Shown in pieces: positions 1 through 46,770 of a stretch of DNA of 54,784 bases. The stretch is from an uncultured Clostridia bacterium (GTDB lineage Bacteria; Bacillota; Clostridia; Christensenellales; Borkfalkiaceae), in NCBI GenBank assembly GCA_947625865.1, contig CANQQD010000010.1, forward strand, positions 1 through 54,784. Direction: 5' to 3'. The position numbers and the translations under genes were made by a program. Each line of letters starts with the position of its first letter. Position 1 is the stretch's first letter. Under the pieces are notes generated by a model. The model searched no databases, was not told the DNA's origin, and saw only the letters and a list, made by a program, of their open reading frames with translations.

Positions 1-54
1 GACTCTAGAAACGAACTCGCTATTTGCATATATTGAATTTAATACTTCTTCTAA

Positions 55-219
55 ATTCCCCACGAATATTTAACTAATGCGGAATACTTTATCATACCGT
101 TCGGGCTGGGCAACAAATACCGGCATCCTGGCGCAAATGTGATCGACGATTTAATCGGTTCAAAATTCAATTTTTACTGCGTAACGCAGCAGCGCGGATT
201 TACATACCGCATTTGCTGA
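55..219 (+). pseudogene. possible gene remnant at the window edge
   Basis: An open frame of about 54 codons with no good start ends at a TGA at 217-219. Its translation looks protein-like (it includes the stretch YFIIPFGLGNKYRHPG), but in-frame stops lie just upstream at 52-54 and 40-42. It could be the 3' end of a decayed gene or chance. I do not recognise the family. Confidence 0.2.
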
Positions 220-255
220 CGGCACGGCGGCGGAGCCGTATTTGAAAACGGCGAT

Positions 256-269
256 ACGTGTTGAGTTTT
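256..269 (+). repeat. copy 1 of the 14-bp word ACGTGTTGAGTTTT
   Basis: Perfect intergenic copy of a word that occurs six times in this window on either strand. It lies just upstream of the hairpin at 293-316. Confidence 0.6.
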
Positions 270-292
270 CACGCAGAAAAGACGGCAAACAG

Positions 293-316
293 AAAGACAG
301 GCGCATGCCTGTCTTT
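293..316. terminator. intrinsic terminator hairpin
   Basis: Perfect 10-bp stem AAAGACAGGC / GCCTGTCTTT with a GCAT loop, followed by a T. It can act in both directions. The rest of 320-485 holds an imperfect dyad around 355-410 (GGGGGCAACGGTT / AACCGTCGCCC) and no credible gene. Confidence 0.6.
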
Positions 317-485
317 TGCGCTTTATGCGGGCGGCGGAGTTTCCGGCAAAAAATAAGGCGGTGGGGGCAACGGTTGAATTGCGGTTGAACCGTCGCCCTT
401 GCCGCCCCTACAAATTGAAGTGGCCGAACAAATCACTGAAAAAACAGCCACATTTGCAGACAAAATAAACTGTTTTACGCAACAA

Positions 486-505
486 GGCGGGCGGCATTGC
501 CCGCC
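486..505 (-). terminator. hairpin after the first lipoprotein gene
   Basis: GGCGGGC / GCCCGCC stem lying just 3' of the stop of the minus-strand lipoprotein gene. The T-run after it is weak, so efficiency is uncertain. Confidence 0.4.
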
Positions 506-511
506 GCCCGT

Positions 512-1810
512 CTAAGTATTGGGGTTATAACCGCACTCTGTGCAGGCGCCGTCGGCGCCCCATATGTGCTCCCCATAATCATCCCGTTGGGTGCAACCGC
601 CGCCGGCTACGCACTGATGCCAATGGTGGGTTGCGTCATTCGACCATCTCGCGCCGTAAAAATCGTGCACGTGTATATCGGATTCCAGCGTGCAGGAAAC
701 TCCCGTTGCGGAATCTGTCTCTATGACTATATCCACCATGTCCCTGTCGAGAAGGTTGCAAGTAACCGTAAACGGAGTTCCCGCAGTCAACTCCTGCGAT
801 ATATTTATCTCCTCCGACGTACCTGCGGCGCGGTCGACCTCAAAGTAATGCAGTTTTACGGTAACCGTGCCCTCCGCCGTAAAGGTTAAGCTATATACGC
901 CCGCGGTTCTTACAACATAAACAATACCTGCGGAATTATCCTTTACGGCAGTAACCGTCTTTTGGGTGTGGGTATTGACATCGCTCCCCGTCTTTCCGCC
1001 CGTCACGGCCTCGAAATACTCGGCGTCGAGTTCGTCGCCGCAGACGGTGCACACGCGCGAAAATGAATAGGGCAACCGCTCCCAATCGCCGTAGGTATGT
1101 TCGCCGTCGGTTGCGTCGGGATCCTTCTGCCCGCAGACGCTGCATACGTGCGTGTGGCAATTCTGTCCTTTGACGGGCTGCCACTCGTAAACGTGCTCGC
1201 CCTTAAGAATAGTTTCCTCACGCGTGTAATTACAGTCTGTGCAAGTGAAGGTTTTTATGCCGTCGGTCCTGCAGGTTGCGGCAGTAGTAACCACGCCGCC
1301 GTCCCATTGATGGTAGACCTTTTCGGTCGTTTCGCCGCAGCCCTCCGTTTGACAGACTTTCCAGTGACCCTGATCGTCGGAAAGCCATTCGCCGTAAACG
1401 TGGTCCGTCTTATCTGTGGGCTCCGTTTTGGTGTAGCCGCAGACGCAAGTATATTTTATTAAGCCCTCGGTTTGGCAAGTTGCCGCGCTGACCACCGTGC
1501 CGCCGTCCCATTGGTGGGCCTCAACCTGCAAGCGCTCGGAAGTATGTTCGCACGAGGGCACGAGCCAGTGTTCCCCGTCGTTGTGCTGATATGTTGAGGA
1601 GGCGGGGTGCTCCGGTTTGGGGATAACCTCTTCCTTCTGTTCGCCGCAGAGCGTACAGGTATATTTCATTAAGCCCGCCTCTCCGCACGTAGCCGCCTTT
1701 TCCACCGTGCCGCCGTCCCAGTAATGCACACACTCCGCCGTCTGCGCGCAGGCCGTGAACGCGCCGAATGCCAGAAAGACGCACGCCGATAAAACCAATA
1801 ATCTCTTCAT
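512..1810 (-). CDS. lipoprotein with repeated Cys/His (CxxC) modules
   Basis: 432 residues. A lipoprotein-type signal peptide ends at about Cys21 (FTAC). Residues ~25-170 hold three copies of a roughly 48-residue module of the form H-x-WDGG-x-V-x3-ATC-x3-G-x3-YTC-x2-CG. Further CxxC pairs follow (CSVC, CTVC) and a last one near the C-terminus (CTEC). A beta-rich segment at ~285-385 separates them. Such modules are known from Firmicute surface proteins; zinc or structural metal binding is plausible but unproven. The start ATG at 1810 is preceded by AGAGGAAA. The gene lies 29 bp downstream of the collagen-like lipoprotein gene, so the two probably share a transcript and the same phase-variable promoter. 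A related Cys/His lipoprotein lies at 28474-29670. No enzyme function is visible. Confidence 0.8.
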   Translation of the reverse strand: MKRLLVLSACVFLAFGAFTACAQTAECVHYWDGGTVEKAATCGEAGLMKYTCTLCGEQKEEVIPKPEHPASSTYQHNDGEHWLVPSCEHTSERLQVEAHQWDGGTVVSAATCQTEGLIKYTCVCGYTKTEPTDKTDHVYGEWLSDDQGHWKVCQTEGCGETTEKVYHQWDGGVVTTAATCRTDGIKTFTCTDCNYTREETILKGEHVYEWQPVKGQNCHTHVCSVCGQKDPDATDGEHTYGDWERLPYSFSRVCTVCGDELDAEYFEAVTGGKTGSDVNTHTQKTVTAVKDNSAGIVYVVRTAGVYSLTFTAEGTVTVKLHYFEVDRAAGTSEEINISQELTAGTPFTVTCNLLDRDMVDIVIETDSATGVSCTLESDIHVHDFYGARWSNDATHHWHQCVAGGGCTQRDDYGEHIWGADGACTECGYNPNT

Positions 1811-1839
1811 TGTATTTAAGCTTTCCTCTTTGCGCGGCG

Positions 1840-2910
1840 TTACTCGGTAACCCTCTCGATTACGATGGTATAATTCGAAATATCGGTTGACATGTTACAG
1901 ATCTCCATGCTGCAATACAATACGCCCTGTTGACTGCCTTTTTGCAAGGTACAGCCCGTACCGCCGTCTATTTCTTCACTTGTCGCAAAGGTATTGCCCC
2001 AATAATAGCCTATGGAATCATTTCCGCCCGTGCCATAATTTTTATCTCTATCGGCGTCAGACGCATGTTCGCCCCAATTCCATCTATCCACAAAATCGGA
2101 CAAGTCTCTTTCGCCTTGATTGTCTTCTGCCGCAGGAGACGGATCATAAACGGAATAATTTAAGTGGTTTATAAATATATTGTCCAGTGCGGATTCGTCT
2201 TCGGTGTAAAGTTTAATTCGGAACCCCTTATATGAGGTATCCGCAGCGTCAACCCACACATAAAATTTAAAATAACGATGTCCGTCCATTGAAGTGCCGG
2301 TCGAATCGCATGGTATCGTTACGTCGTTTCTGCCGGTTTGAAGCAAATCGTCATAATTAATGCCGTTGCTCTGCGTAGTGGCGAAGGTGCCGTCGGAAAA
2401 TTCAACGACGTAATAATCTTCGGAAGTTTGATATACTCCCTTTACGGACACGCCGTTTTGGCCGTTTTGGCCGTTCTGACCTTCCGCACATACGCCCGTA
2501 TCAACACCGTCGATAAGCCAGTTGTGGCTTTCGGGGTCGATCGTGATCTCGGGCGCGTCGCCGTTGTCCCCATCATCGCCCTTGGGGCCGCGCAGACTTT
2601 CGAGCCACTCCTTTTCGGTGCCCTTAAAACCGTTTTCCTTTGCAATGTCGTAGGCGGACTTGCCGTCGGCGCCCGTCGCGCCCGTCGCGCCCCTCGCGCT
2701 TTCGAGAAGGGCGGCATACCATTCCTCATAGGACAGCGGCTGTTCGCCCGACTCCTCGGCATACGCCACATAGGCGTTATATACCGCCGCTATATCGGGG
2801 TTGAGATTGCCCGACGGGTTTTGCGACGTTTGGCAACCGGCGGCAAATGTTGCAGCCGCCGTTACGCAAAGCGCCATTACCGTAGTTACAAAAATTTTTA
2901 ATTTGTTCAT
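1840..2910 (-). CDS. lipoprotein with a short collagen-like region
   Basis: 356 residues. The signal peptide ends with an FAAGC lipobox (Cys at ~26). After a conserved-looking segment (YNAYVAYAEESG) comes a Gly-X-Y stretch (GATGATGADG), then an AYDIAKENGFKGTEKEWLESL element of the kind found beside collagen-like repeats in many gut Firmicute surface proteins, then more Gly-X-Y (GPKGDDGDNGD, GQNGQNGQNG). The C-terminal ~180 residues look like a beta-rich secreted domain of unknown type. ATG at 2910 has a good ribosome site (GGAGG, 6 nt away). It is the first gene left of the invertible promoter segment, so its expression probably depends on that segment's orientation. Function unknown; adhesion or surface variation is an inference. 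Confidence 0.85.
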   Translation of the reverse strand: MNKLKIFVTTVMALCVTAAATFAAGCQTSQNPSGNLNPDIAAVYNAYVAYAEESGEQPLSYEEWYAALLESARGATGATGADGKSAYDIAKENGFKGTEKEWLESLRGPKGDDGDNGDAPEITIDPESHNWLIDGVDTGVCAEGQNGQNGQNGVSVKGVYQTSEDYYVVEFSDGTFATTQSNGINYDDLLQTGRNDVTIPCDSTGTSMDGHRYFKFYVWVDAADTSYKGFRIKLYTEDESALDNIFINHLNYSVYDPSPAAEDNQGERDLSDFVDRWNWGEHASDADRDKNYGTGGNDSIGYYWGNTFATSEEIDGGTGCTLQKGSQQGVLYCSMEICNMSTDISNYTIVIERVTE

Positions 2911-3018
2911 GTTGATCCTCCAACCAAATATTTTTAAAAAGCGTTAAACCTTTTATTGCAGACAAAAACTTAATTTTTGCGTGTATAAATGTATATTTTT
3001 TTATTGCTTTTTTATAGC

Positions 3019-3049
3019 AAAAAGTTCATAGTATAACATAAACTATGAA
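3019..3049. repeat. left inverted repeat of an invertible segment
   Basis: 31-bp repeat matching the reverse complement of 3171-3201 at 28 of 31 positions, including a perfect 16-bp core (TAACATAAACTATGAA). It contains its own dyad: arms GTTCATAGT (3024-3032) and ACTATGAAC (3042-3050) around a 9-bp spacer. This is the shape of a tyrosine-recombinase crossover site. Read leftwards it could also fold as an AT-rich hairpin followed by T's. Confidence 0.8.
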
Positions 3050-3170
3050 CTTTTTTGCAATTTTTTTAGTTGTTGAGGAAAATTATGTATGTTTTACAAA
3101 ATTTTTGAAAAAGATTTTGTTTTTTGTTGACAATATTTCATCGAAGCATTATACTATGGGTGTATATTAA
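3050..3170. other. putative invertible promoter segment (OFF orientation)
   Basis: AT-rich 121-bp spacer between two inverted recombinase-type sites, holding one strong promoter (3127-3155) that points right. The lipoprotein genes lie to the left and a terminator (3203-3226) to the right. No convincing leftward promoter is present in this orientation. Inversion would place the promoter facing the lipoprotein genes with a leader of about 145 nt. The recombinase gene is 34 bp from the right repeat. Confidence 0.75.
3127..3155 (+). promoter_or_regulatory. consensus sigma-A promoter inside the invertible segment
   Basis: TTGACA, 17-bp spacer, TATACT. Predicted transcription start near 3162. It drives rightwards, against the recombinase gene, and its transcript would stop at the hairpin at 3203-3226. 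Confidence 0.8.
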
Positions 3171-3201
3171 TTCATAGTTTATGTTAAACAATGAATTTTT
3201 A
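3171..3201. repeat. right inverted repeat of the invertible segment
   Basis: Partner of 3019-3049. Arms TTCATAGT (3171-3178) and ACAATGAA (3188-3195) flank a 9-bp spacer that matches the left site's spacer, in opposite orientation, at 8 of 9 positions. Opposed spacers favour inversion over deletion. Confidence 0.8.
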
Positions 3202-3202
3202 T

Positions 3203-3226
3203 AAGGCGGGGCTTCCGCCTTTTTTT
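3203..3226 (+). terminator. intrinsic terminator right of the invertible segment
   Basis: AAGGCGG / CCGCCTT stem with a 5-nt loop followed by a run of T's, an efficient rightward terminator placed to stop the promoter at 3127-3155. Confidence 0.85.
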
Positions 3227-3234
3227 ATGCCGTT

Positions 3235-4140
3235 TTACTGTAAAATTCTGGCAACTTTATTCATCATCGCGCGCTTGTGCTCGGGCAGGCTGTGCGCATA
3301 CACGTTCAGCGTCACCGTCGCGCTCTTGTGCCCAAGGATCTCGGACAGGGTCTTTACGTCCATGCCGCACTCGAGCGCGCGCGTTGCAAAGGTGTGGCGC
3401 AGGCTGTGTATGCCCATGTGCGGCAAGCCGAGCTTTTTGAGGACCAGCGAAAAGGTGTTCTGGTAGGAACGCTTTGAGATCATTTTGCCGTCCTTGCCCG
3501 AGATGACGTATTCGCTCTTGCTTTCGGCCTTCAGCCGTCTGAGCACGCACATAAGTTTGCCCGGCAGGGGGATCCTGCGTATGGACGAGAAGGTCTTGGG
3601 GGCGTCGAGCAGCTTTTGGTAGCCCTGTTCGCCGTAAATGTCGCGGCAGGTGTTGCTGACCGTCATAACGCTGTTTTTGAAGTCGATATCGCTCCACTTC
3701 AACGCCATCAGCTCCCCCACCCGCACGCCCGTATAGAGGCAGACGATTATGCCGTATAGCTTGGGAGAGTTGGCTTTTGATATATAATTTTCCAAAAGCC
3801 GCTGGTTTTCCATGCTCAGACATAGTATGTCGCGGCGGCACCGGAGCCGGTATCTGCCGCGGGTCTTCAGCCGCGACTGCCGCACTTCGAGATCTTCGGC
3901 AAAGGTAATGGAACGCTTCACGACCGAGAGCACGCAGTTTACGGTGCCCGGGGAATACCGCCCCGCCAGCCCCGCCACAAACGTCTGTATGTGCCGCATC
4001 GACAGTTCGTCGAGCTCATAGTCGCCCAGTCCGGGCTCTACCTGACCGCTGATGATTGAGGCATAGCGTTCATACGTGCATTGTTTGACAGTGGGTTTTA
4101 CAAGATAAAGCCACTGCCTGAGCCATTCTTTGTACTTCAT
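3235..4140 (-). CDS. tyrosine recombinase, likely invertase of the adjacent segment
   Basis: 301 residues, full length for a small Xer/integrase-type enzyme. An N-terminal SAM-like core-binding domain (residues ~1-95) is followed by the catalytic domain with all key residues visible: Arg140 in TGVRVGEL, a beta-hairpin Lys near 182, HxxR at 245-248, His271 in LGHKS and the nucleophile Tyr281 in NVYAH. ATG at 4140 has GGAGG 9 nt upstream. The gene stands alone next to a pair of inverted recombinase-type sites and has no excisionase or phage neighbours, which argues for a dedicated DNA invertase rather than a prophage integrase. That role is inferred from context. Known tyrosine invertases of this type flip promoters of surface-molecule loci in gut bacteria. 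Confidence 0.9.
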   Translation of the reverse strand: MKYKEWLRQWLYLVKPTVKQCTYERYASIISGQVEPGLGDYELDELSMRHIQTFVAGLAGRYSPGTVNCVLSVVKRSITFAEDLEVRQSRLKTRGRYRLRCRRDILCLSMENQRLLENYISKANSPKLYGIIVCLYTGVRVGELMALKWSDIDFKNSVMTVSNTCRDIYGEQGYQKLLDAPKTFSSIRRIPLPGKLMCVLRRLKAESKSEYVISGKDGKMISKRSYQNTFSLVLKKLGLPHMGIHSLRHTFATRALECGMDVKTLSEILGHKSATVTLNVYAHSLPEHKRAMMNKVARILQ

Positions 4141-4200
4141 AATAATTCCTCCAAATACAAGTATTTATAGTTGCGGCCGCAATATTCAAAAAGCCGAAAA

Positions 4201-4224
4201 ACGGCAGGCCCGAAAGCCTGCCGT
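4201..4224 (-). terminator. terminator after the cation transporter gene
   Basis: ACGGCAGGC / GCCTGCCGT stem with a 6-nt loop. Read leftwards it is followed by TTTTCGGCTTTTT. Confidence 0.75.
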
Positions 4225-4267
4225 TATATGATATACCATATAATATATACGCGCGGAATTTTTTGCG

Positions 4268-5377
4268 TCAGCCCCGCTCCACGGTGACGGAGAGGGTGTA
4301 GCCGGGCGGTAAATTCAACACGTCCGCGATTTTTGAACAAATTTCGGCGTTGGAAAGCTTAAGGGAATATGGTGCGACTACGTCGAACACGAGTTGTGTT
4401 TTAACGCCGCGGACAAGGCGGAAATCGTGAGCTTCCAGCCCCTCCGCCACGGCGGGCAGAATGTTTTTTACCTTTTCCTCGAGGACGAGAGCCTCCTCGT
4501 CTTTGAGGTCCACGGGATCGAGGTGGACGGTGAGATCGACGCCGAATTTTTCAAAGACGCCGTGCTCCAGACCGTCCAATACGGCGTGCGCCGCAAGCGA
4601 GGGTATTGCCCCGTCCATCTCCACGTGCGCGGTGGCATAATATACCCCGCGGCCGTAATTTATGACTCGCAGATCGTGCACGCCGAGCACGCTGTCGCCC
4701 GCGAGCAGATATTCCCTTATCCCCTTGACGAGAGCCTCCTCGGGAGCCTGACCCAACAGCTCGGAGACGGCGGGCTTTAACACAGAAACGCCCTGCCATG
4801 CCACGAACAGCGCAACCGCGCAGCCTACGTAACCGTCGGCGGGAAGCCCCGCAAAACGGGAAATGAGCATGCCGGCTATGACGGCGAGCGTGACCGCACA
4901 GTCGGAGGCGCTGTCTACCGAGGCGGCGCGGAGGGTCTCCGACTGCAGCCTTTTGGAGACGACGTGAAGATAGACCGCCATTCCCGCCTTCACCGCAATG
5001 GAAGCGCCCGCTACGGCATATGCCGCAACGCTGTCCGGGGATAGCCCGCCCGTTATTATTTTTTCTATGGACTCGCGGAAGAGTTCCACGGCGAGGGCGA
5101 AAATTATAAAGCCAATGAGCATAGCCGCTATATACTCGGCGCGGCGGTGACCGTAGGGGTGCTCCTTGTCCGCCGGCTTTTCGGCCACGCGGAAGGACAC
5201 GAGCGACACTACGCCGCTGCCGCAGTCGCTCACGTTGTTGAAGCCGTCCACGAGCAAAGAAATGAGTCCGCACAGAAGTCCCGTAGCTATCTTTGCGCCC
5301 GCCAGAAGGATATTAAGTACTATGCACACCGCGCTTGCGGTCATTCCAGAGCGCGTGCGTCCGTTTTGTTTGGTCAT
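4268..5377 (-). CDS. cation diffusion facilitator family metal transporter
   Basis: 369 residues, normal for the family. Six hydrophobic segments lie in the N-terminal two thirds. The family signature HPYGHRRAEYIAAM is present, with the acidic metal-site residues DGFNNVSD before it and DSASD in a later helix; the second site has Asp where many homologues have His. A cytoplasmic domain of ~90 residues ends the protein. It exports divalent metals (Zn, Fe, Mn or similar) by proton antiport; the metal cannot be told from the sequence. I chose ATG 5377 because a TTGACT-17-TATAAT promoter ends exactly 6 bp upstream, so the mRNA should begin at the start codon. A longer upstream frame exists but would cross this promoter. 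Confidence 0.88.
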   Translation of the reverse strand: MTKQNGRTRSGMTASAVCIVLNILLAGAKIATGLLCGLISLLVDGFNNVSDCGSGVVSLVSFRVAEKPADKEHPYGHRRAEYIAAMLIGFIIFALAVELFRESIEKIITGGLSPDSVAAYAVAGASIAVKAGMAVYLHVVSKRLQSETLRAASVDSASDCAVTLAVIAGMLISRFAGLPADGYVGCAVALFVAWQGVSVLKPAVSELLGQAPEEALVKGIREYLLAGDSVLGVHDLRVINYGRGVYYATAHVEMDGAIPSLAAHAVLDGLEHGVFEKFGVDLTVHLDPVDLKDEEALVLEEKVKNILPAVAEGLEAHDFRLVRGVKTQLVFDVVAPYSLKLSNAEICSKIADVLNLPPGYTLSVTVERG

Positions 5378-5383
5378 AACATC

Positions 5384-5412
5384 ATTATACGGAGAAATAT
5401 AAAAAAAGTCAA
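5384..5412 (-). promoter_or_regulatory. promoter of a predicted leaderless mRNA (metal transporter)
   Basis: TTGACT (5412-5407), 17-bp spacer, TATAAT (5389-5384). The +1 position predicted 7 nt downstream is 5377, the A of the ATG. Confidence 0.75.
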
Positions 5413-5437
5413 TAGCCGACCGTTTTTGCCGCAGAGG

Positions 5438-5466
5438 TTGAAAAACGCGCAAAAGTGTGATAGAAT
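5438..5466 (+). promoter_or_regulatory. promoter of the Nudix-UPF0102 gene
   Basis: TTGAAA, 17-bp spacer ending TGTGA, TAGAAT. Predicted +1 is at about 5473, next to ATG 5472. The TGTGA before the -10 recurs at the promoters near 14886 and 29825. Confidence 0.7.
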
Positions 5467-5471
5467 GGTTT

Positions 5472-6203
5472 ATGGTGAAAATTATGGAAGTTGTGGCGGC
5501 ATACATCACGGACCCGTACGGTAAATTTTTGATTTGCCAGCGGGCGAAAAACAAGGTGCGCGGGCTGTTCTGGGAGTTCGCGGGCGGAAAGATAGAGGCG
5601 GGCGAAACGCCCGAGGAGGCGCTCGTGCGCGAGTGCCGCGAGGAGCTGGCGGTGGAGATAGAGACGGGCGAAAAGCTTGCCGAAGTCACCCACAGATATC
5701 CCGACGCAACGGTGCACCTCACGGTGCTGCGCGCGAGGATAGTGAAGGGCGAGCCGCAACTCTCGGTGCACGAGGCGATGAAGTGGATATACCCGTCGGA
5801 GATCAAAAATTACTGCTTCTGCCCCGCGGACACCGATATACTCAAAAAAATTATGAAAACGGACGGCAAAAAAAACAAGCGGCTGGGCGAAAAGGGCGAG
5901 AAACTGGCGGTAAAGCACCTGAAAAAGCTCGGCTACAAAATTCTGGAGCGGAACTATAAAAATGCCTTCGGAGAGGTGGATATAATAGCAAAACGCGGGG
6001 ACGTGTTGAGTTTTTGCGAGGTAAAGACGAGGCTGAACGACAATTTCGGCGCGCCCTCGGAGGCGGTGGACCGCAAAAAGCGCATGCGGTATATTAAGGC
6101 CGCGCAGAAGTTTGCGCAAGGCGGGGAGTATGTGATACGCTTCGATATAATCGAGGTCTACAGGGGGGAGATAAACTTTATTGAAAATGCGTTCGGGGCC
6201 TGA
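5472..6203 (+). CDS. fusion of a Nudix (MutT-like) hydrolase and a UPF0102/YraN protein
   Basis: About 243 residues. Residues ~1-125 form a MutT-like Nudix domain with a complete Nudix box (it starts at GGKIEAGETPEEA and carries the REC-REE helix), expected to hydrolyse oxidised or non-canonical nucleoside triphosphates. Residues ~135-243 form a UPF0102 (YraN) domain with RLGEKGEKLAVKHLKKLGY, the acidic GEVDIIA and the EVKTR core of a nuclease-like fold. YraN is usually a separate ~120-residue protein, so this is a real fusion without frameshift. The gene is divergent from the CDF transporter. No ribosome site precedes ATG 5472; the promoter position implies a leaderless mRNA. ATG 5484 is the alternative start. 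Joining nucleotide-pool cleaning to a putative nuclease suggests a DNA-maintenance role, which is inference. Confidence 0.88.
   Translation: MVKIMEVVAAYITDPYGKFLICQRAKNKVRGLFWEFAGGKIEAGETPEEALVRECREELAVEIETGEKLAEVTHRYPDATVHLTVLRARIVKGEPQLSVHEAMKWIYPSEIKNYCFCPADTDILKKIMKTDGKKNKRLGEKGEKLAVKHLKKLGYKILERNYKNAFGEVDIIAKRGDVLSFCEVKTRLNDNFGAPSEAVDRKKRMRYIKAAQKFAQGGEYVIRFDIIEVYRGEINFIENAFGA
6001..6014 (+). repeat. copy 2 of the 14-bp word ACGTGTTGAGTTTT
   Basis: Perfect copy inside the Nudix-UPF0102 coding sequence, where it is read as part of DVLSF. Confidence 0.6.
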
Positions 6204-6216
6204 ACGGAGAATTATA

Positions 6217-6254
6217 AAAAGCGGCGCGCCGTTTGAAAACGGCGCGCCGCTTTT
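6217..6254. terminator. bidirectional terminator between convergent genes
   Basis: Near-perfect stem of about 17 bp (AAAAGCGGCGCGCCGTT and its complement) with A's before and T's after, so it works for both the Nudix gene and the ArsB-like gene. Confidence 0.9.
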
Positions 6255-6282
6255 CGCGTAAAACGCAATACATATATCATTT

Positions 6283-7587
6283 TTACACAAAGAGCAGCGA
6301 TATAAACAGTCCGCCGAGGGCGGAAAAGAGGGCGGGCACAGCCACGCATACGCCTATTTTGAGGAAGTCCGCATAGCCGAATTTCAGCCCGTGCCTGTTC
6401 ACTATGGAGCCGAACATTATGCCGGCAAGCGCGCCCACGGGGGTGAGGAACGCGCCGAGGTTGGAGCCGATTATGGTTGCGAACACGGCGGGAAGCCCCT
6501 CGCCCGCGCCCGCTATCACCGAGGAATACAGCACGCTCATGGGGATATTGTTGATAACGTTGGCCGCAAGAAAGGAGGAAACGCCGTACACGAGCGCCGG
6601 CTGCGGGCTGTGCAGAAATACTCCTATCTTCTCCGTGACCCCCTTCTGCCCGGCAATTACTATCAATATGAACATCGACAGAACGAAGGGCACGAGCTGG
6701 TACGGGGCGCGCCTTATGCAGCCCAACAGCTCCGACGGCTTTTTGCGCCGCACCGCAGCCGCTATGGCGGAGATAGTGAACAGGCTGGCCACCGCGCAGA
6801 GGGACACGAGCCACATTTCAAGCCCGAAATATGAGCCGACGGCGAGCAAAAGGGTGCACACACCGAGGTGGACGACGCCCACCCAAAGCTGGAATTTATC
6901 GCGGACGTGCTCCACCGCCTCCTCTCCCTCCATGGGCAGAGCAAGCTTTTTGCGGAACATCAGGTATAGGCAAATAAAGGACGCAACGCCCGCAAACATC
7001 GTGGGAATGACGCTGAGCCTCGCGTAGCCCGCAAAATCCAGACCGTAGGCTGTGGCGAGATAAATATTTGTGGGGTTGCCTATTATAAGGGCCATGCTCC
7101 ACGTGTTCGCCGCAACGAACTCCGCAGCAAGGTAGGGCATCGGGTCTATCCGCGCGTGGCGGGCAAAATAACATATAAAGGGCGTAAACGAGAGAATTAT
7201 AACGTCGTTCGAGGTGAATACCGTCAGAACAGAAACGGTTATGTAGAGATATACAAACAGCTTTTTCTGACCGTGGTGCGCCATTTTCAGGGCTGCGCCC
7301 GCGAGGAACCTGAAAAAGCCGAGTTCGTCTAAAAATACCGAGAGCACTGTCATTGACAGAAACAGAACGAGTATTTTTACGGGATTGACCGCCGTGTCCG
7401 CTACGAGCGCCCTGCCCAACGCCGCGAAGTCGGGCTTGCATACAGCCATGGCGACGGCGGCGCCGAGCACGGCTATTATCCAATAGCTGTCTACCCTGAG
7501 CCCGCCTATTCTGATTTTCGGAAATAAAAGTATGCCGCAGATCATCAAAGCTATGGTCGCCGCACAGATGATTATGATTGCCGTCAT
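6283..7587 (-). CDS. ArsB/SLC13-type anion permease (ion transporter superfamily)
   Basis: 434 residues, polytopic, with about 10-12 hydrophobic segments and two inverted-topology halves. Conserved-looking elements include FTSNDVIILSFTPF and GNPTN in the first half and NNIPMSVL and GSNLGAFLTPVGALAG in the second, the pattern of the ArsB/CitMHS/NhaD group. Substrate is not predictable; arsenite, a dicarboxylate or Na+/H+ exchange are all possible, and no ars genes are adjacent. A possible promoter (TTGCTT-17-TAAAAT) lies about 35 bp upstream of ATG 7587. The gene stands alone, convergent with the Nudix fusion. Confidence 0.75.
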   Translation of the reverse strand: MTAIIIICAATIALMICGILLFPKIRIGGLRVDSYWIIAVLGAAVAMAVCKPDFAALGRALVADTAVNPVKILVLFLSMTVLSVFLDELGFFRFLAGAALKMAHHGQKKLFVYLYITVSVLTVFTSNDVIILSFTPFICYFARHARIDPMPYLAAEFVAANTWSMALIIGNPTNIYLATAYGLDFAGYARLSVIPTMFAGVASFICLYLMFRKKLALPMEGEEAVEHVRDKFQLWVGVVHLGVCTLLLAVGSYFGLEMWLVSLCAVASLFTISAIAAAVRRKKPSELLGCIRRAPYQLVPFVLSMFILIVIAGQKGVTEKIGVFLHSPQPALVYGVSSFLAANVINNIPMSVLYSSVIAGAGEGLPAVFATIIGSNLGAFLTPVGALAGIMFGSIVNRHGLKFGYADFLKIGVCVAVPALFSALGGLFISLLFV

Positions 7588-7775
7588 ATATAAACCGCCG
7601 ATACCTGAAAAATTTTATCACCGACGCTTTAAAAAAGCAACAAAAATCGACATACAAACAGACGGTAACGCAAAAACAGCGTAATCCGGCCGCGGCGGCG
7701 GGCATAAATTTTCGGGAGTGGAGACCCGCAGACGGGAATGTTAAGATTTTTCAAAGAAAATCACCGGCGTTTTCG

Positions 7776-7804
7776 TTGTTTTTTCCGGGCGTTTATGCTA
7801 TAAT
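7776..7804 (+). promoter_or_regulatory. promoter of the ECF S-component gene
   Basis: TTGTTT, 17-bp spacer, TATAAT with an extended TG (TGCTATAAT). The leader is about 25 nt with a GGGGG ribosome site. Confidence 0.7.
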
Positions 7805-7835
7805 GTAAAAGATTTTTCTTTTGGGGGATTTGGAT

Positions 7836-8405
7836 ATGCTGGATCTGGCTTTAGGCAGGAAGAGACCTGCCGTAAAGATAACGGTCAAAGCCACAATAGC
7901 CGTGCTGCTTGCGGTGATGGCTGTGGCTCTGCCGCAGCTTACTCACCTTGCGGGAGGCGCGGACGCGGGGGCGGTATATATGCCGATGTATATGCCCGCG
8001 CTGCTTGCCGGAATACTTTTGGGCTGGCAGTGGGGACTCGGCGTCGGGATAGCTTCGCCCGTTATAAGCTACGGCTTCACCACTCTTGCCTTAGGCGCGG
8101 CAATGCCCGCCCTTGCAAGGCTCCCCTATATGACGGCGGAGCTCGCCATATTCGGCGCGGTCGCGGGGCTGTTCTCCAAACGCGCGCAGCGTTCTCCCCT
8201 TATCTCTTTCCCCGCGGTGCTTTTAGCCCAGACTGCCGGAAGATCGTTCTACGTAATTTACAATCTCATTGCCGGCAAAACCATAGAATATCTCTGGAGT
8301 TCCGTCGTTGCGGGCATGACGGGGCTTTGGCTTCAGGCGATTATAGTGCCTGCGCTCGCCATACTTCTCTTTGCGGTGCTTAAACATGAACAAAAATCTG
8401 AATAA
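7836..8405 (+). CDS. ECF-type transporter substrate-binding (S) component
   Basis: About 189 residues, very hydrophobic, with five to six predicted helices, the size and layout of vitamin-uptake ECF S components. The motif of small residues in GILLGWQWGLGVGIASPVIS fits the shared interface with EcfT. The ligand is not clear: the next genes (DUF1893, bile salt hydrolase, PnuC) do not settle it. ATG 7836 follows GGGGG at a good distance; the in-frame TTG at 7821 is less likely. The energising EcfA/A'/T module is not in the window, as usual for group II ECF systems. Confidence 0.75.
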   Translation: MLDLALGRKRPAVKITVKATIAVLLAVMAVALPQLTHLAGGADAGAVYMPMYMPALLAGILLGWQWGLGVGIASPVISYGFTTLALGAAMPALARLPYMTAELAIFGAVAGLFSKRAQRSPLISFPAVLLAQTAGRSFYVIYNLIAGKTIEYLWSSVVAGMTGLWLQAIIVPALAILLFAVLKHEQKSE

Positions 8406-45415: not shown

Positions 45416-46770
45416 CAAGCGTAACGCTTGACCCCAGTATCTTTATTGCGTTAGCTCTTAACGAATGTTAGCTCACGTCAAGCGGCGGCGTGTCGCCGCG
45501 GGCGGGTTGTCCGTCGGACAACATAAATACTCGCTGCGCTCGTGTTAAATATGCTGCGCATTTTAAATATCGGCTCCGCCGATGTGAAATATTGCACTGC
45601 GTGCAATGTTGTGGTAAAGATTATCAGAAGTGCCCCTCGCCATCTTCCGTCGCCAAGCCACAGGGTTCCCGAAAATTGCAGCATAGCGAAATTTTTGGGA
45701 AGAGGAGCCGCAACGTGGCAAATTTGCCGTTTGCTCTTCGCGCAAACGGCTTAAAGCCTAAGTTTGCGGCGACGAGGCGGCGTGTCGCCGCAAGCGTATC
45801 GCTTGACCCCAGTATCTTTATTGCGTTAGCTCTTAACAAGGTTACCACACGTCAAACAGCGTATCGCTGCTATCTTCCCTTGCCCTCTTCCGTGTTAACG
45901 GGGGAGGGTGTCACGAAGTGACGGGTGGGAGCACGGGTTCCGTTTTTCCTCCCCTCAGTCTCGCTTTGCTCGACAGCTGTCTCACACGGCGCAAGGAATA
46001 ACGCCGTGTTCGGGCACAGTAACACGATTGCGCCAAAGGCGAACAATCGCTATTCCGTCGCTTCGCTCCTTACGCGCGGGACGTTTGCGCTCACTCATCT
46101 CGCGCGGCAAAACAGCGCTACTAGGCTGTTTTGAGAATTCCGCGCTCTCTCAAAAGGTGTAAGGACAACACCTTTTTCGGGCACCGTTCGCGCCTTGCGC
46201 TATGCGCTCACTCATCTCGCGCGGCAAAACAGCGCTACTAGGCTGTTTTGAGAATTCCGCGCTCGTCCCCCCATTGGGGAAAGAAGCCAAGGTTTGGGGG
46301 GTGCGCTCCCCCTCTCTGTCATTCTGCGCGTGCTTGCTCTTCCCCCTCACTGTCATTCTGCGCGAGGGCTTTGCCCGACGCCCTGCCGAGGGTTCCCCTT
46401 TGGGAAACGGCAGAGGCGTTAGCCGAAGAATCTGTCGCGTAGCGACTTTGGGTTTGGCGTTTCAAACAGCCTCGACCAGTCCACGAGGGGATTATTTCGG
46501 TCAATCGCCCGCTTTCAGCGGGTCTCATATCGCTCTGCCGTTTCCCGTAAACGGGAACCCTCGGCAGGGCGTCGGGCAAAGCCCTCGCTCAAAATGACAA
46601 GGCTTAATGGGCAAAGCAATTATTTGTTATTACGAAGTCCTGCGGCGGGTAGAAGCGAGCAGAACGAGGAGCGTGCGGCTTTGCGACGGGGAGTGTACAT
46701 AGACGTACATGACCTGAGCAAAACGTAAGCGCGACAATGTTATGCGACGCTTATACACGCCGCCCGGTAG
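45416..46770. repeat. mosaic repeat island 6
   Basis: Holds GCGTAACGCTTGACCCCAGTAT modules (two copies), small hairpins, a CTTCCGTCGCC module with the 125-bp insert (45649-45773), a plain module (about 45890-45930), CACACGGCG and AAAAGGTGT hairpins (45978-46013, 46148-46178), two copies of a CGCGCGGCAAAACAGCGCTAC segment, a GAAGAATCTGTCGCG module and a ~140-bp element (46624-46770). No credible gene. Confidence 0.75.

Follow-up and report, generated by a model that had tools for sequence, protein, structure and literature searches.

The locus and its parts

A tyrosine recombinase gene and two putative lipoprotein genes of an uncultured bacterium of the Borkfalkiaceae (Clostridia) are separated by a short segment bounded by inverted repeats, which raises the question of whether the recombinase flips this segment and thereby turns the lipoproteins on and off. 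We analyzed the whole stretch of DNA in which the locus lies, 54,784 nucleotides in length (hereafter, the window), together with related loci from other genomes. The features concerned are the following.

512-1810, minus strand: lipoprotein 2 (432 aa; 26 Cys, 21 His), putative second gene of the operon
1840-2910, minus strand: lipoprotein 1 (356 aa; three short Gly-X-Y runs), putative first gene under the switch
3019-3049, no strand: candidate lipoprotein-proximal recombination site, an imperfect dyad
3022-3050, minus strand: hairpin at the lipoprotein-proximal site, terminator-like toward the lipoproteins
3050-3170, no strand: candidate invertible segment (121 bp), homologous, in inverted orientation, to the inner segments of two related loci (L042 and L041)
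3127-3155, plus strand: sigma-70-type promoter TTGACA-17-TATACT, in the OFF orientation, away from the lipoproteins
3171-3201, no strand: candidate recombinase-proximal recombination site, inverted relative to 3019-3049 (27/31)
3203-3227, plus strand: predicted intrinsic terminator (AAGGCGGGGCTTCCGCCTT + TTTTTATG at 3203-3221), facing the OFF promoter just outside the right site
3235-4140, minus strand: tyrosine recombinase (301 aa; PF00589 and PF14659), complete

The original prediction had described two 31-bp inverted repeats, identical at 28 of 31 positions and each with the arm-spacer-arm shape of a tyrosine recombinase site, which enclose a single consensus promoter aimed away from the lipoprotein genes and into a terminator, with a complete recombinase gene adjoining. 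This layout was recovered, with the identity of the repeats recounted as 27/31. The repeat scan places the arms at 3020-3049 and 3171-3200 (27/30 complementary, 121 bp apart), and the complementarity over 3019-3049 and 3171-3201 is 27/31. The left arm forms a dyad of its own (3019-3035 and 3039-3055, 94% complementary over 17 nt) around a spacer that we read as about TAACATA. All four mismatches (of 31 bp) between the two sites fall within the outer half of the site, while the spacer and the segment-side half are identical in both. Allowing up to three mismatches, neither the rest of the window nor the rest of the 1.76-Mb genome holds a further copy of the site, which at this tolerance is likewise absent from all of 100 window shuffles. 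A repeat scan of the whole window (arms of at least 15, separation 60-400 bp, score at least 14) returned a single other repeat of this class, an unrelated GC-rich pair at 46351-46401 and 46549-46599 (48/51 bp, 147 bp apart) that is possibly an intergenic repeat element.

The promoter matches the consensus at 11 of 12 positions and is the best of six found in 2700-4400 (shuffle mean 2.2). The terminator-like hairpin downstream of it, on the same strand, scores 10.7 facing the OFF promoter and 0 in the reverse direction; taken by itself, the terminator scan of the window (one found vs a shuffle mean of 2.5) is not above chance, so the weight given to this terminator comes from the related loci described below. 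The hairpin at the lipoprotein-proximal site scores 10.4 toward the lipoproteins in the present orientation vs 5.2 after an in silico flip. No Rfam match was obtained in positions 1-8000 of the window.

The recombinase gene is intact and its stop codon lies 33 bp from the right site. Pfam recognizes only PF14659 and PF00589 in the protein, with no match to an N-terminal arm-type DNA-binding domain. The closest solved structures to its catalytic domain are PDB 6emy and 6emz (6emy at E = 6e-20, residues 130-297), deposited as "Int protein" and, we presume, the Tn1549 integrase. The residues around R, HxxR, H, and Y, which we take to be catalytic, align with both structures. A recombinase 80% identical to that of the window (P0122) is known as a protein only, and searches of viral contigs gave neither a confirmed relative of the recombinase nor an exact match to the site. 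The genome of the window also carries a truncated paralogue of 222 aa, 45% identical (L002:1501-2190; contig C1:162641-163306), that stands before another lipoprotein-like gene; no strong inverted repeat was found downstream of it, and this locus is possibly a decayed switch.

The two lipoprotein genes lie on the same strand, 29 bp apart, with GGAGG upstream of the first. Both N-termini are lipobox-like (AAGC in lipoprotein 1, FTAC in lipoprotein 2), from which surface exposure of both proteins is predicted. The Cys/His-rich character proposed for the second is borne out by its composition (26 Cys and 21 His), but "collagen-like" proved a weak label for the first, whose 12 Gly-X-Y triplets amount to three runs of four and which has no Pfam match, the collagen repeat included; a match to Pfam Collagen was obtained for the output of one related locus (L048). 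At E ≤ 0.001, lipoprotein 1 shows similarity to 205 proteins, and at least five of the 120 listed, besides itself, align over the full length with 44-66% identity. At 1e-15 it has matches in 5/131 genomes of the family, all partial except the window's own, and the 130 other family genomes yielded no full-length relative. Lipoprotein 2 has a relative at 75% identity. One relative of each protein, P0005 (lipoprotein 1) and P0242 (lipoprotein 2), shares the same value for the longest contig, 36845 bases, an agreement suggesting that the two genes are also found together elsewhere; in a similar way, 5290 bases is given for both the lipoprotein 1 relative P0004 and the recombinase P0126, suggesting that these two also occur together. 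The AlphaFold model of lipoprotein 1 (14 sequences) is poor (mean pLDDT 57.8, pTM 0.50) and Foldseek gave no match for it at E ≤ 0.001, so no function is drawn from its structure.

On this basis we consider that the locus is probably a phase-variation switch, now OFF, in which the recombinase flips the 121-bp promoter segment that controls the lipoproteins (probability about 0.86, from the DNA sequence of the locus and its relatives). The enzyme encoded at 3235-4140 would act on both inverted sites and flip the segment together with its promoter. In the OFF state the promoter would fire into the terminator at 3203-3221 and yield at most a stub of ~60 nt; once flipped (ON), it would have its -10 box 154 bp ahead of the start codon of lipoprotein 1 and would drive both lipoprotein genes as one operon. 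The lipoprotein-proximal hairpin could provide a second lock, being terminator-like toward the lipoproteins in OFF and weaker in ON. From this arrangement we infer that this recombinase catalyzes the inversion, that the strain still undergoes it, and that the switch acts on the lipoproteins.

Related loci in opposite orientations

A segment that flips is expected in both orientations, and the original prediction had suggested that related genomes be searched for the ON state. As our genome collection holds one genome per species, orientations were compared between related species. The two closest relatives with readable DNA both proved to carry the promoter outward (ON), with inner segments inverted relative to that of the window. 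The first, L042 (the same contig as L007, refetched), encodes a recombinase 65% identical to the window's and has 26-bp perfect inverted repeats, 122 bp apart, with the promoter toward a 920-aa lipoprotein. Its inner segment aligns with that of the window at 31.8 inverted (0/1000 dinucleotide shuffles) and 15.5 direct (150/1000). The second, L041, has a recombinase 70% identical and the same architecture; here the values are weaker, 24.0 inverted (7/1000 shuffles) and 12.0 direct (203/1000), and the coupling of switch to lipoprotein is less certain because ~900 bp without a called gene separate the switch from the first lipoprotein gene. The downstream flanks of the window align with those of L042 and L041 at 14.9 and 16.8 direct and at 11.0 and 14.0 inverted, and are too diverged to prove that the loci are orthologous.

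Five other pairs of relatives also have homologous inner segments in opposite orientations. In three of these the right flanks are collinear while the inner segments are inverted: L055/L067 (flanks 137.1 direct vs 14.1 inverted; inner segments 55.8 inverted vs 9.5 direct), L111/L138 (189.3 vs 13.3; 34.0 vs 9.0), and L075/L107 (69.6 vs 10.8; 96.0 vs 16.5). In L047/L053 the inner segments are inverted to each other and the flanks do not align, and the two copies L088 and L107 within one genome (G355) are in opposite orientations, judged on inner segments. Assembly error seems an unlikely cause of such opposite orientations because the segments are short enough for reads or read pairs to span. 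L047 and L053 each offer two alternative right arms per left arm (+180 and +232 in L047; +183 and +234 in L053), suggesting that these loci have three recombination sites.

The locus in the window could nevertheless be a formerly active switch that has become locked OFF in this lineage, and the imperfect match of its sites (27/31) as well as the truncated 222-aa paralogue, with no strong inverted repeat found downstream, would both fit such a fate. However, the recombinase is intact with its catalytic residues aligned, the spacer and the segment-side half are the same in both sites, and imperfect repeats also occur at loci seen in opposite orientations (25/27 in L055 and 20/21 in L067). We thus regard a locked switch as unlikely, although it is the strongest of the competing explanations.

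A recurrent geometry

At E ≤ 1e-30, relatives of the recombinase occur in 130/398 genomes of the family (12/18 genera), and at E ≤ 1e-60 in 83/396 genomes of the order (33/142 genera); in a class-wide sample only 6/391 genomes had matches at E ≤ 1e-60, three of them outside the order. We examined 141 loci, all from the same order: the window, 100 loci of the family (the best 100 of at least ~150 listed matches, taken in E-value order), and 40 loci from other families, selected to cover a range of families and with preference given to those with downstream flank. Loci with less than 400 bp of flank (6/101 in the family set with the window, 6/40 in the other families) were left out of the eligible counts. 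A repeat score of at least 13 was found downstream of the recombinase in 50/95 loci of the family set and window, vs 8/98 in the upstream control; in shuffled background for this set (n = 1900) the 99.5% quantile of the score is 12 and the maximum 14. In the other families the count is 15/34 loci, vs 0/38 upstream.

By a looser rule (repeat score at least 13, or at least 11 plus a promoter), 78/141 loci are positive, and 54/132 are classified negative despite enough flank. Over the 78 positives the median distance is 33 bp from the recombinase stop to the site and 125 bp between sites, and in the 65 loci with a promoter of at least 9/12 a median of 17 bp separates the -10 box from the arm. A promoter stands in the matching place in 65/78 positive loci, a count that is partly circular because some loci (score 11-13) were admitted for having a promoter of at least 9; a correctly placed promoter of at least 10/12 is present in 55/78 positives vs 6.0% of shuffled segments. 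The recombinase of the window belongs to a clade of seven members (support 99%) in which the switch is present in 7/7, five ON and two OFF.

Having the recombinase does not guarantee a detectable switch, as the 54/132 negatives are spread over the recombinase tree without clear clustering (37 changes vs a shuffled mean of 40.9; 60/500 shuffles reach a value this low); L122, L110, and L121, with internal stops, were left out of the tree. Since the negatives form no separate clade, some may hold repeats missed by the scan. Other negative loci lie in different contexts. Three recombinase relatives without a detected repeat (L051:3153-4304, L063:1051-2112, and L072:1125-2159) stand just upstream of a reverse transcriptase (Pfam RVT_1), and the small ORF that follows RVT_1 at these loci presumably resembles the accessory protein of diversity-generating retroelements.

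Switch state, terminators, and site specificity

Among positives with a clear promoter, 49 are OFF, 15 ON, and 1 undecided, and after collapsing recombinases at least 90% identical, 40 are OFF, 14 ON, and 1 undecided (two-sided binomial p = 0.0005). The ON label is clustered on the tree (13 changes vs a shuffled mean of 16.3; 1/500 shuffles reach a value this low), with ON loci concentrated in the window's set of seven, where five are ON. This clustering points to a likely clade-wide bias beyond free flipping; free, fast flipping alone does not predict it, and it counts against the switch reading.

Terminators could be compared in 73/78 positives, those with sites too close to the stop being left out. 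Between the site and the recombinase stop, a terminator score of at least 8 faces the OFF promoter in 53/73 loci, vs 28/73 when this interval is read the other way and 16/73 on the output side; because the loci are related, the p values of these comparisons (6e-9 and 3e-8) overstate the evidence. When 63 loci were flipped in silico (undecided states also left out), the hairpin of the output-side site was stronger in the OFF orientation in 16/63 and stronger in ON in 4/63. A state-dependent output-side terminator had been considered as a general rule and was reduced to a minor feature, as score 8 is reached in 12/63 loci in the OFF configuration and 4/63 in ON.

These hairpins bear on another possible mode of control, in which transcription arrives from the recombinase gene or from further upstream and the main effect of inversion is to create or destroy a terminator at the site next to the lipoproteins. 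The fall of the window's hairpin from 10.4 to 5.2 on flipping and the bias of 16/63 vs 4/63 loci agree with it, and C. difficile cwpV, in the available text describing it, has its promoter outside the segment and a proposed OFF-only terminator (PMC2784873). In the window, however, a strong promoter lies inside the segment (an extra upstream promoter is possible), a promoter takes a similar place in 65/78 positives, and its direction is what changes; the output-side terminator, moreover, reaches score 8 in just 12/63 loci in OFF and 4/63 in ON. Control of this type is improbable here, slightly more so than a locked switch.

It is less probable still that the OFF promoter makes a product of its own, a small RNA with a regulatory effect on the recombinase or on other genes. 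Such a stub would be a discrete transcript, and OFF is the commoner state in assemblies (40 vs 14 after dereplication), but in the window its transcription is expected to stop at the terminator, short of the recombinase stop codon, and positions 1-8000 contain no Rfam match. Least credible of all, and disfavored, is that the repeats are mere terminators or a chance palindrome without recombination: dyads with A/T tracts are indeed present in their arms, which can fold into terminators, but this explains neither the presence of two inverted copies at a distance of 121 bp, nor the recurrence of that geometry in 78/141 loci, nor the inverted inner segments between collinear flanks.

Returning to the invertible promoter, the more alike two recombinases are among the 78 loci, the more alike their sites tend to be (Mantel rho 0.32, 0/500 permutations), and three loci of one genome (L044, L047, and L052 of G113) have differing sites. 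These observations fit recombinase-specific sites, although the enzymes may still cross-react.

Genes placed behind the putative switch

Among the 69 positives with a downstream gene, 40 outputs have a signal-peptide-like start and 28 a lipobox, vs 15 and 7 among 43 negatives (Fisher p = 0.02 and 0.007). The calls were made by our own simple rules, according to which some 4 in 10 outputs of positive loci would not be secreted. A Pfam scan of 10 outputs matched 7: Listeria-Bacteroides repeats in three (two also with leucine-rich repeats), collagen in L048, DUF6273 in L043, an ABC transporter in L073, and a LytTR regulator in L067. Genes for ABC transporter ATPases follow the switch in L109, L111, L138, and L073 (by Pfam for L073, by N-terminal resemblance for the other three); L111 and L138, both before ABC transporter genes, are among the pairs with mutually inverted inner segments.

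PADLOC was run on 10 hand-picked defense-like outputs and gave some match for 10/10, weak in L149 (4e-6). At least four outputs, with their neighbors, are restriction-modification systems with both activities matched in PADLOC:

L089, 2652-4545: type II restriction-modification after the switch
L178, 2677-4826: type II restriction-modification after the switch
L162, 2640-6689: type II with helicase after the switch
L155, 2638-6590: type III after the switch, the restriction subunit being the weakest match (2.5e-14)

In all four (4/4) the module lies directly upstream and its better promoter is OFF.

Relation to known systems

That tyrosine recombinases can invert promoters is well established, with well-studied cases in Bacteroidales, Enterobacteria, and C. 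difficile, and the mechanism proposed here is that of an inverton with an adjacent tyrosine recombinase. E. coli fimS with FimB-FimE and the invertible promoters of Bacteroides have a promoter in the segment, a tyrosine recombinase, and a surface structure as output, in other hosts and presumably with different recombinase families. They share the promoter-in-segment design with the window, while at window-type loci a terminator usually stands against the OFF promoter. The enzyme of the window, whose closest solved catalytic-domain relative is the presumed Tn1549 integrase, differs from that integrase in ending beside a promoter segment and not at an element end, and has no match to an arm-binding domain. 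In the Vpma/Xer1 system of Mycoplasma several lipoprotein genes are rearranged, unlike the window, where one promoter segment before a fixed operon would be flipped. What is common to both, from the available text on Vpma, is that site-specific recombination varies surface lipoproteins (PMC2268961).

The nearest published match found is a group of Clostridia invertons, group 139, that a study of a defined gut community tied to group 35 of the tyrosine recombinases (Jin et al. 2025, PMC11892184). According to the available text of that article, 32/33 invertons of the group are in Clostridia, orientation shifts in reads were seen for two, and co-evolution of invertases and sites is suggested (PMC11892184). 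It resembles the window in its short inverted-repeat segment, nearby recombinase, and clostridial hosts. The two named hosts, Clostridium sp. D5 and Intestinimonas (PMC11892184), are cultured, unlike that of the window, whose recombinase relatives (E ≤ 1e-60) are concentrated in its own order; group 139/35 was compared by description, and the word lipoprotein is absent from the main text of that article. For C. difficile cwpV, the available texts describe a short segment flipped by RecV, a surface protein as output, and a proposed OFF-side termination (PMC2784873, PMC5903667). The window shares with cwpV the tyrosine recombinase, the short segment, and a predicted surface output, and differs in having its promoter inside the segment rather than outside and its recombinase 33 bp away.

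Our literature search found no paper joining Borkfalkiaceae with phase variation or Christensenellales with invertons; it covered few subscription papers, and we claim no absence from print. What may be new is the family picture, i.e., the fixed geometry, the terminator against the OFF promoter, and the use before surface proteins and restriction-modification systems.

A possible plug-in switch of one Clostridia order

Taken as a whole, we somewhat favor the view that the window holds one copy of a standardized plug-in switch that recurs across one Clostridia order known mostly from metagenomes. Such a module would consist of the recombinase, ~33 bp, a site, ~125 bp with a promoter, a second site, and usually a terminator that silences the OFF promoter. 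Each recombinase would have its own diverged site, so that several switches in one genome could flip independently, OFF would be the usual state, and the outputs would range over surface lipoproteins, other surface proteins, transporters, a regulator, and complete restriction-modification systems.

These findings place a compact recurrent invertible promoter in another Clostridia order and show related loci in opposite states, from sequence alone. If the sites are recombinase-specific, the loci would supply dozens of diverged recombinase-site pairs for specificity tests and for DNA inversion tools. With switches standing before whole restriction-modification systems, phase-variable phage defense by promoter inversion becomes directly testable. 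If the plug-in reading is true, both the surface make-up and the DNA defense of these bacteria would vary cell by cell through one mechanism.
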